64,000 bases of DNA from Proteocatella sphenisci DSM 23131 (GTDB lineage Bacteria > Bacillota > Clostridia > Peptostreptococcales > Filifactoraceae), in assembly GCF_000423525.1 (NCBI RefSeq), contig NZ_AUID01000006.1:62001-126000 (forward strand), read 5' to 3'. Within the stretch, counting starts at the first letter, position 1. Every line of letters starts with the position of its first letter. The translations under genes and the position numbers were made by a program. The notes under the pieces were generated by a model. The model had not been told where the DNA came from, made no database searches, and saw only the letters and a program-made list of their open reading frames with translations. This document shows, in pieces, positions 37,637 to 56,427 of this stretch.

Positions 37637-38131
37637 ATGAACAACACAGAGATGACAATAAAAGTTGATGAAATTCTGCAAGAATTTGGTCGCGAAAAAG
37701 CTCAGCTTATAAACATAATGCAGGCAATTCAAAAAGAGTATCGCTATCTGCCAGAAGAATCATTAAAATACATATCGGAAAAAATGGAAATAAGCGAAGC
37801 AAAAATATATGGAGTGGCTACATTTTATGAGAACTTTTCACTGAATCCAAAAGGGAAATATGTAATAAAGATATGCGATGGTACTGCTTGTCATGTAAGA
37901 AAGTCAATACCTATACTTGAAGCACTGAGGAAACAGCTTGTGCTCACAGAAAAAAAGAAAACAACTGATGATAAGATGTTTACTCTGGAAACAGTATCAT
38001 GCCTTGGAGCATGTGGTCTTGCTCCTGTAATAACCATTAATGATAAGGTATACCCAAAGGTAACTCCAGACTTTGTAGTCGAGATCATAAATAATATAAA
38101 GGTAGAGGAGGCGCAAAATGCTGATAAATAG
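37637..38131 (+). CDS. hydC: [FeFe]-hydrogenase subunit HydC (NuoE-like)
   Basis: A 164-residue thioredoxin-fold [2Fe-2S] protein. The four ligands are in CDGTACHVRKS and CLGACGLAP. It is the small subunit of trimeric NAD-linked hydrogenases, relaying electrons between HydB and the rest. The gene overlaps hydB by 14 bases. The order hydC-hydB-hydA is the classic arrangement in Thermotoga- and Acetobacterium-like organisms. Confidence 0.93.
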   Translation: MNNTEMTIKVDEILQEFGREKAQLINIMQAIQKEYRYLPEESLKYISEKMEISEAKIYGVATFYENFSLNPKGKYVIKICDGTACHVRKSIPILEALRKQLVLTEKKKTTDDKMFTLETVSCLGACGLAPVITINDKVYPKVTPDFVVEIINNIKVEEAQNADK

Positions 38132-39995
38132 TTATGATAAATTGGTAGAACTGTCAGAGCTTTATAAATCGTCTCTGGATAAGCAAAGAAAAAAGATACT
38201 TGTATGTGCAGGTACCGGATGTATAGCTGGAGGATCTCTGGATGTATATGCAGAGCTGAAAAGACTGGTTGAAGAAAAAGGACTGCTTGTAGACGTGGAC
38301 CTTGAAAAAGAAGAAGAAGGCGTGGGCATCAAAAAGAGCGGATGCCACGGATTCTGCGAAGCTGGGCCTCTTGTAAGGATAGAGCCTGAAAATTATCTTT
38401 ACCTTAAGGTAAAGGTTGGCGACTGTCAAGAAATAATAGAAAAGTCCATACTTGATGACGAATCTGTGGACAGACTGACATATGAGCTTGACTGCAAATC
38501 CTATAAAACACAAGAAGAAATACCTTTTTATAAACGTCAGCACAGAGTAGTGCTAGAGCATTGTGGACATATGGATGCAGAAAGTATACAAGAATACATT
38601 GCCCATGGAGGATATCAGGCTGCTGCAAAAGCAATAACTACGATGACTCAGCAGGAAATTTGCGATACGCTTGTGGAATCAGGTCTTAGGGGACGTGGCG
38701 GTGGAGGATTTCTTGCCGGTACAAAGTGGAAACAAGTACTTGCGCAAAAAGAAAGTCAGAAATATATAGTTTGTAACGGGGATGAAGGTGACCCTGGAGC
38801 ATTTATGGACCGAAGCGTAATGGAGGGAGATCCTCACAAGATAATAGAAGGAATGATGATAGCAGGTTTTGCAACTGGAGCAGATCAGGGATATATATAT
38901 GTAAGAGCAGAGTATCCTATGGCAGTTGAAAGGCTTAAGATAGCCATAGATAAAGCAAGAGAATGTGGATTGTTAGGGAATCACATACTTGGAAGCGATT
39001 TCAGTTTTGAGATTCATATAAACCAGGGAGCCGGGGCATTCGTATGTGGGGAAGGTTCGGCACTGACAGCTTCTATTGAGGGCGAAAGAGGAATGCCAAG
39101 GGTAAAACCGCCTAGAACTGTTGAGCAAGGACTTTGGGCAAAACCGACTGTACTCAACAACGTAGAGACCTTTGCCAACGTTCCGGTAATACTTCTTAAG
39201 GGAGTAGAGGAATTTAGAAAGCTTGGAACTCCAGGAAGCCCGGGTACAAAGGCATTTGCCCTTACAGGAAATGTCGTTAACACAGGACTTATTGAAGTAC
39301 CTATGGGAACAACTCTCAGAGAAGTAATATTTGAAATAGGTGGAGGTATTGCAGGAGGAAAGAAATTCAAGGCAGTACAGATAGGCGGACCATCGGGAGG
39401 CTGCCTTTGCTTTACAAAGCAGCATCTGGACATGCAGCTTGACTTTGATTCTTTGAGCGAAGTAGGAGCAATGATAGGGTCTGGTGGTATGGTTGTAATG
39501 GACGAAGATACCTGTATGGTTGAGGTGGCAAGGTTCTTCATGAACTTTACTCAAACTGAAAGCTGTGGAAAGTGCATACCTTGCAGAGAAGGTACAAAAA
39601 GAATGCTTGAAATCTTGGAAAAAATAGTAAATGGAAACGGAGAGCCAGAGGATCTGGATCTTCTTGAAGATATAGCTGACACTGTAAAAAACACAGCTCT
39701 GTGTGGACTTGGAAAGACTGCGGCAAACCCTATCTTAAGTACACTGGAGTGGTTTAGAGATGAGTACGAAGCTCACGTAATAGATAAAATATGTCCGACA
39801 AAAAACTGTAAAGGCCTTATGAAACTGGAAATAGACCCAGTTCTTTGCAGAGGATGCAGCAAGTGTGCAAGAATCTGTCCGGCGGATGCTATTTCAGGAA
39901 AGATTAAGGAACCGTTTACCATAGATACAAAAAAATGTATCAAGTGTGGAGCTTGTATCGAAGCTTGTGCATTTGATGCTATAAAGGAGGCATAA
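38118..39995 (+). CDS. hydB: [FeFe]-hydrogenase subunit HydB (NuoF-like, NAD/FMN)
   Basis: A 625-residue flavin subunit. An N-terminal [2Fe-2S] thioredoxin-like domain (CAGTGCIAGG, CHGFCEAGP) is followed by the FMN/NADH domain with GLRGRGGGGFLAGTKW, an [4Fe-4S] site CGKCIPCREGTKR, and two C-terminal 4Fe-4S motifs (CRGCSKCARICP and CIKCGACIEACA). In electron-bifurcating enzymes this subunit handles NAD(H) while ferredoxin exchanges at the iron-sulfur sites. The site AGAGGAGG supports the ATG at 38118. Confidence 0.93.
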   Translation: MLINSYDKLVELSELYKSSLDKQRKKILVCAGTGCIAGGSLDVYAELKRLVEEKGLLVDVDLEKEEEGVGIKKSGCHGFCEAGPLVRIEPENYLYLKVKVGDCQEIIEKSILDDESVDRLTYELDCKSYKTQEEIPFYKRQHRVVLEHCGHMDAESIQEYIAHGGYQAAAKAITTMTQQEICDTLVESGLRGRGGGGFLAGTKWKQVLAQKESQKYIVCNGDEGDPGAFMDRSVMEGDPHKIIEGMMIAGFATGADQGYIYVRAEYPMAVERLKIAIDKARECGLLGNHILGSDFSFEIHINQGAGAFVCGEGSALTASIEGERGMPRVKPPRTVEQGLWAKPTVLNNVETFANVPVILLKGVEEFRKLGTPGSPGTKAFALTGNVVNTGLIEVPMGTTLREVIFEIGGGIAGGKKFKAVQIGGPSGGCLCFTKQHLDMQLDFDSLSEVGAMIGSGGMVVMDEDTCMVEVARFFMNFTQTESCGKCIPCREGTKRMLEILEKIVNGNGEPEDLDLLEDIADTVKNTALCGLGKTAANPILSTLEWFRDEYEAHVIDKICPTKNCKGLMKLEIDPVLCRGCSKCARICPADAISGKIKEPFTIDTKKCIKCGACIEACAFDAIKEA

Positions 39996-39996
39996 T

Positions 39997-41691
39997 ATGA
40001 GCAAGGCTATGATTATAGATGGTATGAGAGTGCCTTATACTGATGAAAAAAATATCCTGGCGGTAATAAGGAATGCAGGCATAGATCTTCCTACATTTTG
40101 TTATCATTCAGAACTTAGTATATATGGGGCATGCAGAATGTGTTCTGTAGAAGACCAGAGGGGAAACATAATTGCGTCTTGTTCAGAAAGACCAAAAGAT
40201 GGAATGGTAGTATCTACAAACACTAGGAGAGTTCAGAAGTATAGAAAGACTATCCTGGAGCTTCTTCTTTCAAACCATGATAAGGACTGTACATCTTGTG
40301 AGATAACGGGAAAATGTCAGCTCCAGTCACTGGCGCTCAGATATGGAGTAAAAAAATCCAGATTTGAGAACAATTTCCAGGAAAAAGAAATAGATAATTC
40401 GAGTCCAAGTATTGTAAGGAACCCAAACAAATGCATAAAATGTGGAGACTGCGTTATGGTATGTGAGGATGTCCAAGGCGTTGGAGCGCTTGGATTTGCA
40501 CATAGAGGCTCAGAAGTTGAGATAACCCCTGCATTTGGAAGAAAACTGGCAGAGAGTAATTGCGTAAACTGTGGCCAGTGCAGAATCGTATGTCCTACAG
40601 GAGCAATAACAATCAAAAACGATACTCAGAGAGTATGGGATGCTATATTTGATGATAACACAAAGGTGGTAGCTCAGATAGCTCCGGCTGTGAGAGTAGC
40701 CCTTGGAGAAGAATTTGGACTTCCAGCTGGAACTATGACTCTTGGAAAGATGGTTGCGGCCATGAGAAAGATGGGAGTAGAGCAGATATTTGATACTGCC
40801 ATAGCTGCAGACCTTACAGTAAGAGAAGAATCAGGCGAATTCCTATCTAAATTTACAAAGGGGCAAGGGCTGCCACTCTTTACTTCATGTTGTCCTGCCT
40901 GGGTAAAATTTGTAGAGAACAAATACCCTGAATTTGTACAAAATCTTTCTACGGCGCGTTCTCCTCAGCAGATTTTTGGTTCAGTTTACAAAGAAATTGA
41001 AAATGCCAATAGAGAAAATGAAGACAAAAGAAAGCCGTTTCTGATTTCAGTTATGCCATGCACTGCTAAAAAAGAAGAGATTACAAGACCTGAATTTACA
41101 AAAAATGGAGTACCTGATGTAGATGTAGTCATAACTACTCAGGAACTGGCTATAATGATAAAAGAAATGGGAGTAAACTTTGCAGACCTGGAAGAAGATT
41201 CCATGGATATGCCTTTTGGAGTAGCATCTGGAGCGGGTATAATCTTTGGAAATACGGGTGGAGTTACCGAAGCTGTACTAAGAGACGTGGCGAGCGATAA
41301 ATTTGATAAAATAGAGCTTGAGATTCTTTTTGAAAATGTCAGAGGACTTGAAGAAGTAAAAGAAGCTACGGTAAGCATTGATGGCGCGGAAATAAGAATG
41401 GCTGTTATTCATGGACTTAAGAATGCAGATATGATTCTTAAAGAAATAAAAGAAGGCAAGAGACATTATGATCTTATCGAGGTTATGGCTTGCAGAGGCG
41501 GATGTATATCAGGAGGAGGTCAGCCTGTAAACAAAACACCTGCAAAACAGACAAGGCAAGACAGAGCAGCTGGACTTTACAGTGTAGACAGAAAGAAAAA
41601 GCTTAAGCGTTCTAAGGACAACTATGTAATGAATGAGCTTTATGAAGGAATTCTCAAAGATAATGAACACATAATGCATATACACAGATAA
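39997..41691 (+). CDS. hydA: [FeFe]-hydrogenase catalytic subunit HydA
   Basis: A 564-residue H-cluster protein. From the N-terminus: [2Fe-2S] ferredoxin domain (CYHSELSIYGACRMC), His-Cys [4Fe-4S] site (HDKDCTSCEITGKC), two 4Fe-4S motifs (CIKCGDCVMVC, CVNCGQCRIVC), then the H-cluster signatures L1 TSCCPAWVKF, L2 MPCTAKKEE and L3 MACRGGCISGGGQP, all intact. It makes or uses H2. With HydB and HydC it probably forms the complex that couples H2 to NADH plus reduced ferredoxin; bifurcation itself is inferred from the subunit set. Confidence 0.94.
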   Translation: MSKAMIIDGMRVPYTDEKNILAVIRNAGIDLPTFCYHSELSIYGACRMCSVEDQRGNIIASCSERPKDGMVVSTNTRRVQKYRKTILELLLSNHDKDCTSCEITGKCQLQSLALRYGVKKSRFENNFQEKEIDNSSPSIVRNPNKCIKCGDCVMVCEDVQGVGALGFAHRGSEVEITPAFGRKLAESNCVNCGQCRIVCPTGAITIKNDTQRVWDAIFDDNTKVVAQIAPAVRVALGEEFGLPAGTMTLGKMVAAMRKMGVEQIFDTAIAADLTVREESGEFLSKFTKGQGLPLFTSCCPAWVKFVENKYPEFVQNLSTARSPQQIFGSVYKEIENANRENEDKRKPFLISVMPCTAKKEEITRPEFTKNGVPDVDVVITTQELAIMIKEMGVNFADLEEDSMDMPFGVASGAGIIFGNTGGVTEAVLRDVASDKFDKIELEILFENVRGLEEVKEATVSIDGAEIRMAVIHGLKNADMILKEIKEGKRHYDLIEVMACRGGCISGGGQPVNKTPAKQTRQDRAAGLYSVDRKKKLKRSKDNYVMNELYEGILKDNEHIMHIHR

Positions 41692-50946: not shown

Positions 50947-50972
50947 ATTGGACCTCCTTAAATTTTACAAAA

Positions 50973-50986
50973 TTAGCTATAACTAA
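50973..50986. promoter_or_regulatory. DtxR-like box near the feoA start
   Basis: TTAGCTATAACTAA, an inverted repeat with TTAG/CTAA ends like the DtxR/IdeR consensus half-sites. It lies in the feo leader, downstream of the predicted start point. Confidence 0.6.
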
Positions 50987-51004
50987 CTGCACTTCAAATA
51001 AAAA

Positions 51005-51020
51005 GTTAGCACAAGCTAAC
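51005..51020. promoter_or_regulatory. DtxR-like box in the feo promoter region
   Basis: GTTAGCACAAGCTAAC, with flanking CTAA to the right; read on the minus strand it begins TTAGGTTAG, the full half-site of the DtxR/IdeR consensus. It overlaps the predicted feo transcription start. Confidence 0.7.
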
Positions 51021-51031
51021 CTAATGTCTAA

Positions 51032-51060
51032 ATATTATCATTTGAATGTGTACTTGTCAA
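51032..51060 (-). promoter_or_regulatory. Predicted feo promoter
   Basis: On the minus strand TTGACA (51060-51055) and TAATAT (51037-51032), 17-base spacer. The start point would be near 51025, right at the second DtxR-like box. Confidence 0.65.
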
Positions 51061-51092
51061 CAAAAATTATTGATAATTCTTTAAAAAAATTG

Positions 51093-51121
51093 TTGACCTG
51101 TATTAAAATGAGATGTACAAT
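51093..51121 (+). promoter_or_regulatory. Predicted flavodoxin promoter
   Basis: TTGACC (51093-51098) and TACAAT (51116-51121), 17-base spacer, with a DtxR-like box over the expected start point. Confidence 0.65.
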
Positions 51122-51129
51122 GGCATTAA

Positions 51130-51145
51130 TTAGTTAAAACTAACT
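51130..51145. promoter_or_regulatory. DtxR-like box in front of flavodoxin
   Basis: TTAGTTAAAACTAACT, with the same TTAG...CTAA ends as the two boxes on the feo side. It begins 8 bases after the flavodoxin -10 box. Confidence 0.62.
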
Positions 51146-51171
51146 TTATTTTTTATTGAGGAGGGTTAGAT

Positions 51172-51600
51172 ATGAGCGAGATTGGCGTTATTTACTGGAG
51201 TGGAAGCGGAAATACTAAGGCAATGGCAGAGGCCGTAGCAGAAGGAATAAAATCAGCAGGCGCAGAGACGGACCTGATGGAAGTATCTGACATAAGCCAG
51301 GACAAGGCTGCGGAATACGAAAAGCTTGCATTCGGTTGTCCCTCAATGGGATCGGAAATGCTTGAAGAATCGGAATTCGAACCGTTTTTTGAAGCTGTAG
51401 AGCAGAAGCTTTCTGGCAAGAAGGTCGCACTTTTTGGATCATACGGATGGGGCGATGGAGAGTGGATGAGAGACTGGCAAGACCGAGTAGAGTCAAAGGG
51501 AGCTGTTTTGTTCAAAGAGGGACTTATATTGAATGAGACCCCAGACAGCGATGGACTCGAAGAGTGCAAAGAATTTGGAAAAAGCTTTGCGCAGTTTTAG
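51172..51600 (+). CDS. Flavodoxin
   Basis: A 142-residue short-chain flavodoxin. The FMN phosphate loop is YWSGSGNTKAMAEA, and the second FMN loop GSYGWGDGEWM is typical of clostridial flavodoxins. It replaces ferredoxin as electron carrier when iron is scarce. Divergent from feoAAB, with an iron-box between promoter and gene, so it should be switched on together with Fe2+ uptake. Strong site GAGGAGGG. Confidence 0.94.
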   Translation: MSEIGVIYWSGSGNTKAMAEAVAEGIKSAGAETDLMEVSDISQDKAAEYEKLAFGCPSMGSEMLEESEFEPFFEAVEQKLSGKKVALFGSYGWGDGEWMRDWQDRVESKGAVLFKEGLILNETPDSDGLEECKEFGKSFAQF

Positions 51601-51645: not shown

Positions 51646-51712
51646 TATATACTATTATTTTTTTATATATATTATTTTTTTATATATATTGTTTTTTTAT
51701 ATATATTGTTTT
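51646..51712. repeat. 17-bp AT-rich tandem repeat overlapping the thioredoxin stop codon
   Basis: About four copies of a unit like TATATATATTGTTTTTT (G or A at one position). The first unit from the gene side encodes the last thioredoxin codons and stop (minus strand), and the others follow it without coding function. It looks like local duplication of the end of the gene, or strand slippage. Confidence 0.8.
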
Positions 51713-52044: not shown

Positions 52045-52908
52045 TTACTTTTTCAAGTTGTTAAGGTATGAAACGGCAGACAATGAGGCTATGTTGCCTT
52101 CTCCTGCCGCTTTGATATACTGATATGGAGCTCCTACTACATCACCCGCGGCAAAACAGCCTGGAAGGTTGGTTTTCATCAGTCTGTCAACTTCGACGTG
52201 ATTATCGGCTATTTTTAGGCCTGGAACGAGTTGTCCTGGAGATATACTGTCTCTTAGTATAAACAAGCCATCGGTTTCTATTTCGCTGTTTTTCATAACA
52301 AGTTTATTTACAGAGTTTTCACCTCTTATTGCCAGGGGAATATCATTTACTACCTGGATTGATTTATTCACTTCGACTTTATCTTTGTACATGGGTACGT
52401 AGTATACTTTTGAGGCAAGATCTGAAACATAATTCGCTTCAGCTTCATCATGCTTGTTGTAAGATATTATAGTTACGGTCTTGTTTTTGTAAAGCGGGGC
52501 ATCACATGTTGCACAATAGCCCACTCCTCTTCCCAAAAACTCATCCTCACCTGAAAATGGTTTTCCAAAATTCACTCCTGTTGCCAATATGAGAGAGGAT
52601 GCTTCATACATCTTATCGTTAGCCATGAGTGCATAATATTCACCCATGGGATATATATTGTTTATTTTTTCTTCAGTAATCTCGATTCCCATAGATTCAA
52701 GGTGGTTAGCGAATTCGCCTCGCAGCTCTTCTCCACTTCTTCCAGGAAAACCCAGGTAGTTGTTTATAGATGGGGCCTTGATAAGCTTTGTACTCATTTC
52801 ACGACTTCCAAAAACAATAAAGCTCTTATTTCTGATTTTGGCATTGAGGGCAGCTGAAAGACCAGCAACTCCACTGCCAACTATTGCTATATCATATCTG
52901 TTATTCAT
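52045..52908 (-). CDS. Thioredoxin reductase-like flavoprotein lacking NADPH motifs (possibly ferredoxin-dependent)
   Basis: A 287-residue flavoprotein of thioredoxin reductase fold. FAD motif VGSGVAGLSAALNA and redox site YCATCDAP are intact, as is the closing GCFAAGDVVG. But the NADPH motifs are absent: where GGGDSA is expected it reads SYNKHDEA, and HRRxxxR is replaced by a stretch reading VPMYKDK. The same losses define the ferredoxin-dependent (FFTR) type of clostridial thioredoxin reductase, which draws electrons from reduced ferredoxin. Cotranscribed with thioredoxin, its presumed substrate. Confidence 0.85.
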   Translation of the reverse strand: MNNRYDIAIVGSGVAGLSAALNAKIRNKSFIVFGSREMSTKLIKAPSINNYLGFPGRSGEELRGEFANHLESMGIEITEEKINNIYPMGEYYALMANDKMYEASSLILATGVNFGKPFSGEDEFLGRGVGYCATCDAPLYKNKTVTIISYNKHDEAEANYVSDLASKVYYVPMYKDKVEVNKSIQVVNDIPLAIRGENSVNKLVMKNSEIETDGLFILRDSISPGQLVPGLKIADNHVEVDRLMKTNLPGCFAAGDVVGAPYQYIKAAGEGNIASLSAVSYLNNLKK

Positions 52909-53376: not shown

Positions 53377-53409
53377 AGTTTAGCTCTCCTGAAATATTGC
53401 TTAAAATTA

Positions 53410-53423
53410 AATTGTACACAATT
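53410..53423. promoter_or_regulatory. Candidate OhrR operator
   Basis: AATTGTACACAATT, with 6-base inverted arms around AC, similar to the AT-rich ACAATT-type OhrR boxes. It is 34 bases upstream of the regulator gene. Confidence 0.55.
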
Positions 53424-53533
53424 GATTATGTTAATATTATAGTATCATAAGCAGCATATGTCAATATGTTTTTATACACAAAAAAAAACAGCTGAATTCA
53501 TGTATCCTTCATCTGTTTTTTTGATTATTTTTT

Positions 53534-55500: not shown

Positions 55501-56073
<573 letters not shown>

Positions 56074-56076
56074 TGA

Positions 56077-56427
<351 letters not shown>

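Follow-up and report, generated by a model that had tools for sequence, protein, structure and literature searches.

Closest described systems

Although structures of ferredoxin-dependent flavin thioredoxin reductases (FFTRs) are known, the cellular role and control of the clostridial enzymes are largely open outside Clostridium difficile. The PDB chains 6gnc, 6gna/6gnb and 6gnd (the last in complex with thioredoxin, Trx) are those of the FFTR of Clostridium acetobutylicum. The enzyme described here lies in a 64,000-nt stretch (the window) of the genome of Proteocatella sphenisci DSM 23131 (G000 in our genome sample; 2.41 Mb, 98.7% complete). It is 56-61% identical to the C. acetobutylicum protein, with which it shares the CATC redox pair, the lack of NADPH motifs and of a C-terminal tail, and a Trx partner; however, its operon is headed by an OhrR-type gene.

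According to PMC10880999, the trxA1B1 operon of C. difficile encodes an FFTR (TrxB1) together with a WCGPC Trx and is induced by 1% O2, and the same genome carries an NADPH-type TrxB with a GCEPC Trx in the grd cluster. The layout given there, one FFTR-Trx operon plus an NADPH-type reductase (NTR)-Trx pair in grd, is shared by P. sphenisci. In contrast to the OhrR-headed operon found here, the C. difficile operon is reported to be under sigma-B, and neither OhrR nor MarR is mentioned in that text (PMC10880999).

The FFTR of Gloeobacter violaceus (5j60, 6xtf) has the same open domain arrangement and the same job (PMC12796991, PMC8469568), but is only 25-26% identical to the window enzyme. In the alignment, the latter lacks the cyanobacterial-type C-terminal tail with its conserved Trp and ends with VSYLNNLKK. 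Against a 24-row profile, the Gloeobacter FFTR scored 141 bits and ranked 18th, below many NADPH-type enzymes, and thus the likeness of clostridial and cyanobacterial FFTRs lies more in their arrangement than in their sequence.

OhrR of the Bacillus subtilis type (1z91, 1z9c) is a one-cysteine peroxide sensor of the MarR family, which the head gene product resembles in being a one-cysteine MarR protein with a similar operator core. Classical OhrR controls Ohr, whereas the OhrR-type genes described here are found with FFTR, Trx and glutathione peroxidase (GPx).

Table 1. Features of the window discussed in the text.
Feature	Position	Strand	Evidence or remark
Sigma-70-type promoter, TTGACA-17-TATAAT	53436..53464	-	12/12 consensus positions; 5' of OhrR-type gene
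OhrR-operator-like site TACAATTTAATTTTA	53402..53416	-	3' of -10 box; one mismatch to TACAATTnAATTGTA
OhrR-type MarR regulator, Cys14, 144 aa	52942..53376	-	OhrR 1z91/1z9c, 138.5 bits
FFTR-type thioredoxin reductase, 287 aa	52045..52908	-	ATG start; PDB 6gnc 391 bits, tree, predicted fold
FAD-binding GSGVAG, residues 11-16	52861..52878	-	No variation at G11, G13 or G16 across 24 aligned sequences
CATC redox pair, residues 132-135	52504..52515	-	Invariant in 24 aligned sequences
SYNKHD, residues 149-154, at GxGxxA position of NADPH enzymes	52447..52464	-	Motif missing
Thioredoxin, WCGPC, 103 aa	51697..52008	-	TIGR01068, 123.6 bits (cut-off 96.8)
Flavodoxin, short-chain	51172-51600	+	TIGR01753, 154 bits (cut-off 123)
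Ferredoxin-linked hydrogenase cluster	37637-41691		NuoE-like, NuoF-like, [FeFe] hydrogenase group A6 (scores)

Family assignment of the reductase

A sequence-only reading of the window had described the FAD motif and the CATC pair as intact and both NADPH signatures as gone. The reading frame has exactly the coordinates given there, the first two motifs are present in it (Table 1), and the NADPH signatures are indeed absent: SYNKHD replaces GxGxxA, HRRxxxR is missing from the protein, and HRR occurs nowhere in it. By pattern search, CATC is present in 28/28 homologs on the FFTR side of the tree described below, and GxGxxA and HRRxxxR in 0/28, whereas across the branch GxGxxA is kept in 28/29 rows, L030 alone lacking it. 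The weaker divider is HRRxxxR, as the pattern search also missed it in many NADPH-side rows. Given the split of 28/28 versus 28/29, the motif loss is not a matter of chance.

In a single-sequence search against solved chains, 6gnc, 6gna and 6gnd scored 391, 379 and 374 bits, and the next best chain 116 bits. The 24-row profile gave 469, 451 and 445.5 bits for the C. acetobutylicum FFTRs and 192 bits for the next chain, so that the gap became wider than with the single sequence. Meanwhile, the match to TIGR01292 (NCBI thioredoxin-disulfide reductase) reached 182 bits, far under the cut-off of 343. A maximum likelihood (ML) tree of 58 rows, which did not contain the solved FFTRs themselves, was parted by one branch (100/100) into 29 FFTR-side rows (28 homologs plus the window protein) and 29 TrxB-like rows. 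Within the former, the window FFTR is sister to 16 rows from Clostridium, Romboutsia, Cellulosilyticum and their kin.

AlphaFold was run on the window protein together with 18 named homologs and gave a model with a mean pLDDT of 81. This model superimposes on 284 residues of 6gnc at 2.3 A and on 280 residues of the Gloeobacter FFTR 5j60 at 3.6 A despite only 25% identity, whereas full-length alignment to most NADPH-type chains gives 9-15 A (TM 0.90 versus about 0.55). The predicted domain arrangement is therefore open as in FFTR; since AlphaFold may have learned 6gnc, the fold is supporting rather than independent evidence. Taken together, sequence, tree and predicted fold support the membership of the protein in the clostridial FFTR family, a class already known. 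The match to clostridial FFTRs proposed earlier was thus borne out, including by the phylogeny against NADPH-TrxB that had been suggested as its check.

Judging from this family membership, ferredoxin would be the electron donor. Reduced ferredoxin (possibly also flavodoxin) would deliver two electrons, one at a time, to the FAD of the homodimeric flavoenzyme, whose disulphide domain would swing so that the CATC pair is reduced, and the reduced pair would pass electrons to the neighbouring WCGPC thioredoxin.

The presumed operon and its OhrR-type head gene

The OhrR-type gene, which the earlier reading had overlooked, is the first of the presumed operon and is separated from the FFTR gene by 33 nt on the same strand. 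The thioredoxin gene, which the earlier reading had rightly placed directly downstream, follows 36 nt 3' of the FFTR gene in the same direction. A consensus promoter and an operator-like site precede the first gene (Table 1); the reference motif for the latter, TACAATTnAATTGTA, is the OhrR operator consensus. A search of the window against Rfam returned only a tRNA, and hence no known riboswitch precedes the operon. In the regulator, Cys14, the presumed sensing cysteine, lies in the NQLCF context and is itself kept in 24/24 homolog rows (two rows represent one gene). As the protein scored 164.6 bits with NF052638 (TransRegOhrRVib), below the cut-off of 200, we name it OhrR-type.

OhrR would repress the operon by binding an AATTnAATT palindrome close to the promoter; oxidation of its N-terminal cysteine by organic (or hydrogen) peroxide would release the repressor. 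Reduced thioredoxin would then serve thiol repair and, probably, a GPx-family peroxidase encoded beside a second OhrR. We give a probability of roughly three in four to this main reading, i.e. a clostridial-type FFTR in an OhrR-FFTR-Trx operon that is released by peroxide and feeds electrons from ferredoxin through FFTR and Trx to GPx.

An operator-like core upstream of OhrR units

The strict TACAATTnAATTGTA consensus is matched at 13/14 positions in the window, 14/14 in L048 and L050, and 12 in L051. However, most Clostridium units score like background, and the strict consensus was therefore dropped as a general operator. No strict site was found before the internal OhrR genes of L038, L039, L041 and L042.

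The shorter core AATTnAATT occurs within 150 nt before the first gene in 12/14 OhrR units, where shuffles expect 1.38, and in 2/77 of the remaining upstream regions at these loci. The Fisher p of 2.5e-11 for this comparison ignores kinship; the counts are non-independent because the species are related, and the test is partly post hoc because the shorter motif was adopted only once the strict one had failed in most units. The core precedes units starting with Trx, GPx or OhrR, and is found in 2/9 FFTR units without OhrR. Among later OhrR units it was present in 4/7 (0.60 expected). The held-out set alone gave 4/7 units versus 4/21 other regions (p 0.077), the latter four belonging to an OhrR, an FFTR, a gene that diverges from a GPx unit and, once more, the OhrR-GPx unit of P. 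sphenisci. Among further OhrR-GPx units, from the family to which P. sphenisci belongs, 3/3 carry the core, one as a perfect TACAATTCAATTGTA; the core is missing before the first gene in L004, L051, L069, L071 and L073.

Recurrence of the gene neighbourhood

At 23 named FFTR loci, which were found with the window's own peptides and are thus biased towards close kin, OhrR accompanies the FFTR gene in 11 and Trx in 14, and GPx is present in nine (by eye from N-termini); two more loci, L055 with an NTR-side protein and L056 with a fragment, were not counted. Gene orders include OhrR-GPx-FFTR-Trx, Trx-FFTR-OhrR and GPx-FFTR-Trx-OhrR, and the pairing of OhrR with FFTR was seen in contigs of Clostridium, Romboutsia, Cellulosilyticum, Lachnospiraceae and Treponema. 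When the class was sampled evenly, FFTR was found in 32/245 genomes, P. sphenisci included. Among the other FFTR-bearing genomes (31 sampled plus G044), such an OhrR occurs in 8/32 but adjoins FFTR in only two (G019 and G190), and therefore OhrR is not a general FFTR partner. In seven of those eight genomes (all except G175) OhrR lies near Trx or GPx. The sample counts thus suggest that OhrR goes with the Trx/GPx/FFTR set, yet most FFTRs are without OhrR.

This scarcity of OhrR beside FFTR, together with the FFTR-Trx pairs without OhrR that are common at the named loci, would fit a different explanation, in which OhrR stands next to FFTR by chance or regulates nothing but its own gene, and FFTR-Trx is a housekeeping pair or works for ribonucleotide reductase or in Stickland metabolism. 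We consider this unlikely, given the short same-strand gap between the OhrR-type and FFTR genes, the recurrence of their association in varied gene orders across the contigs listed above, and the operator core before units led by Trx, GPx or OhrR; in addition, an NTR and a CEPC thioredoxin are encoded within the grd cluster itself.

In one sampled genome (L072:920-1701, G185), a tandem pair of GPx-like genes was seen beside OhrR, one with an in-frame TGA, which makes it either a selenoprotein gene or a broken gene.

A second OhrR, beside GPx, and the possible origin of the operon

The genome of P. sphenisci contains a second OhrR (66-68%) that adjoins a GPx gene (locus L062). The AATTnAATT core is present upstream of this unit, with only 10/14 consensus matches. 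The best solved relative of the GPx is yeast Hyr1, a thioredoxin-using peroxidase; a GPx of this kind would close the chain from ferredoxin through FFTR, Trx and GPx to peroxide.

The OhrR-GPx pair is shared by G001, a genome from the genus of P. sphenisci, and by two others of the family, G005 and G008. FFTR was found in 0/10 other genomes of the family (four of the ten are <90% complete) and in 2/48 other genomes of the order (G044 and G019). In the tree, the window FFTR groups with Clostridium and Romboutsia rows, away from those of G044 and G019. On the simplest reading, an acquired OhrR-FFTR-Trx unit joined a resident OhrR-GPx unit; differential loss in the relatives, instead of transfer, is possible.

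The operon suggests that fermentative electrons are used against peroxides. A wider proposal, which we hold tentatively and with slightly more doubt than belief, is that OhrR-type sensors of anaerobes would control FFTR, Trx and a Trx-dependent GPx as one peroxide regulon paid for by ferredoxin and not NADPH, the FFTR-Trx half having been transferred into this lineage and plugged into the resident OhrR-GPx unit via a shared operator. If true, the OhrR link would provide FFTR with organic peroxide as a direct and testable signal and with GPx as a client, and fermenters would spend ferredoxin electrons on peroxide defence. The literature searched, which covered few subscription papers and included PMC8557875, yielded no link between OhrR and FFTR, and nothing on FFTR with glutathione peroxidase in Clostridium. 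The enzyme class itself is not new; what the OhrR-headed arrangement adds to it is modest and testable.

Electron donors and other redox genes

At least four small frames of the genome carry two CxxCxxCxxxC motifs, and such small, free 2[4Fe-4S] ferredoxins could be candidate donors for FFTR. The catalytic chain of the iron-sulphur ferredoxin-thioredoxin reductase (PF02943) had no match in the genome (controls were positive in 2/14), and this enzyme was ruled out. The ferredoxin-linked hydrogenase mentioned in the sequence-only reading was recovered in the window by its scores (Table 1). As to the role of the operon, the OhrR-type head gene tells more than this distant hydrogenase or the convergent flavodoxin gene.

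The same reading had listed an iron-regulated flavodoxin. The flavodoxin stands, but its iron regulation is only suggestive: the gene points away from feoA-feoA-feoB, and a search of the DNA between them for a Fur box, allowing up to three mismatches, found none. TTAG...CTAA palindromes that resemble DtxR/IdeR-type sites were seen by eye in the feoA/flavodoxin divergent region (50947-51171). In the interval between the thioredoxin and flavodoxin genes, an AT-rich repeat of TTTTTTATATATATTGT-like units was noted at 51650-51710.

Given that 96 bases separate the end of the flavodoxin gene from the Trx gene, and that feo lies next to the former, the enzyme might be an FFTR whose donor in the cell is this flavodoxin, mainly under iron limitation, the operon being part of iron physiology. 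We regard this as improbable, since the flavodoxin gene is convergent with the operon and no member of it, no flavodoxin matched in the 23 named FFTR loci when flavodoxin and feo were among the queries, and a Fur box is missing as described. Least probable is a reductase that uses NADH or NADPH and has a modified nucleotide site: the overall fold family is common to FFTR and NADPH-type TrxB, and TIGR01292 gives a match far under its cut-off, but GxGxxA is missing from the window protein and all 28 homologs on their separate branch, a full NADPH-type TrxB is already present in the genome, and the ordinary NADPH-type enzyme is ruled out by motifs, tree and fold.

That other TrxB, encoded elsewhere in the genome, has GGGDSA and HRRDALR; its neighbours are a CEPC thioredoxin and an ORF that was recognised by eye as GrdX-like. 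In the same genome (L060:1477-1800; G000:C11 near 68171-68452), a thioredoxin-like frame reads through one TGA as PTUGAC, and the codon may possibly encode a selenocysteine replacing the first active-site cysteine. Finally, the ATP synthase operon of the window has two c-subunit genes (55516-56073 and 56098-56427), one whose 185-aa product contains two c-type repeats and another of single-hairpin type, a set similar to the mixed sodium c-ring known from Acetobacterium woodii.
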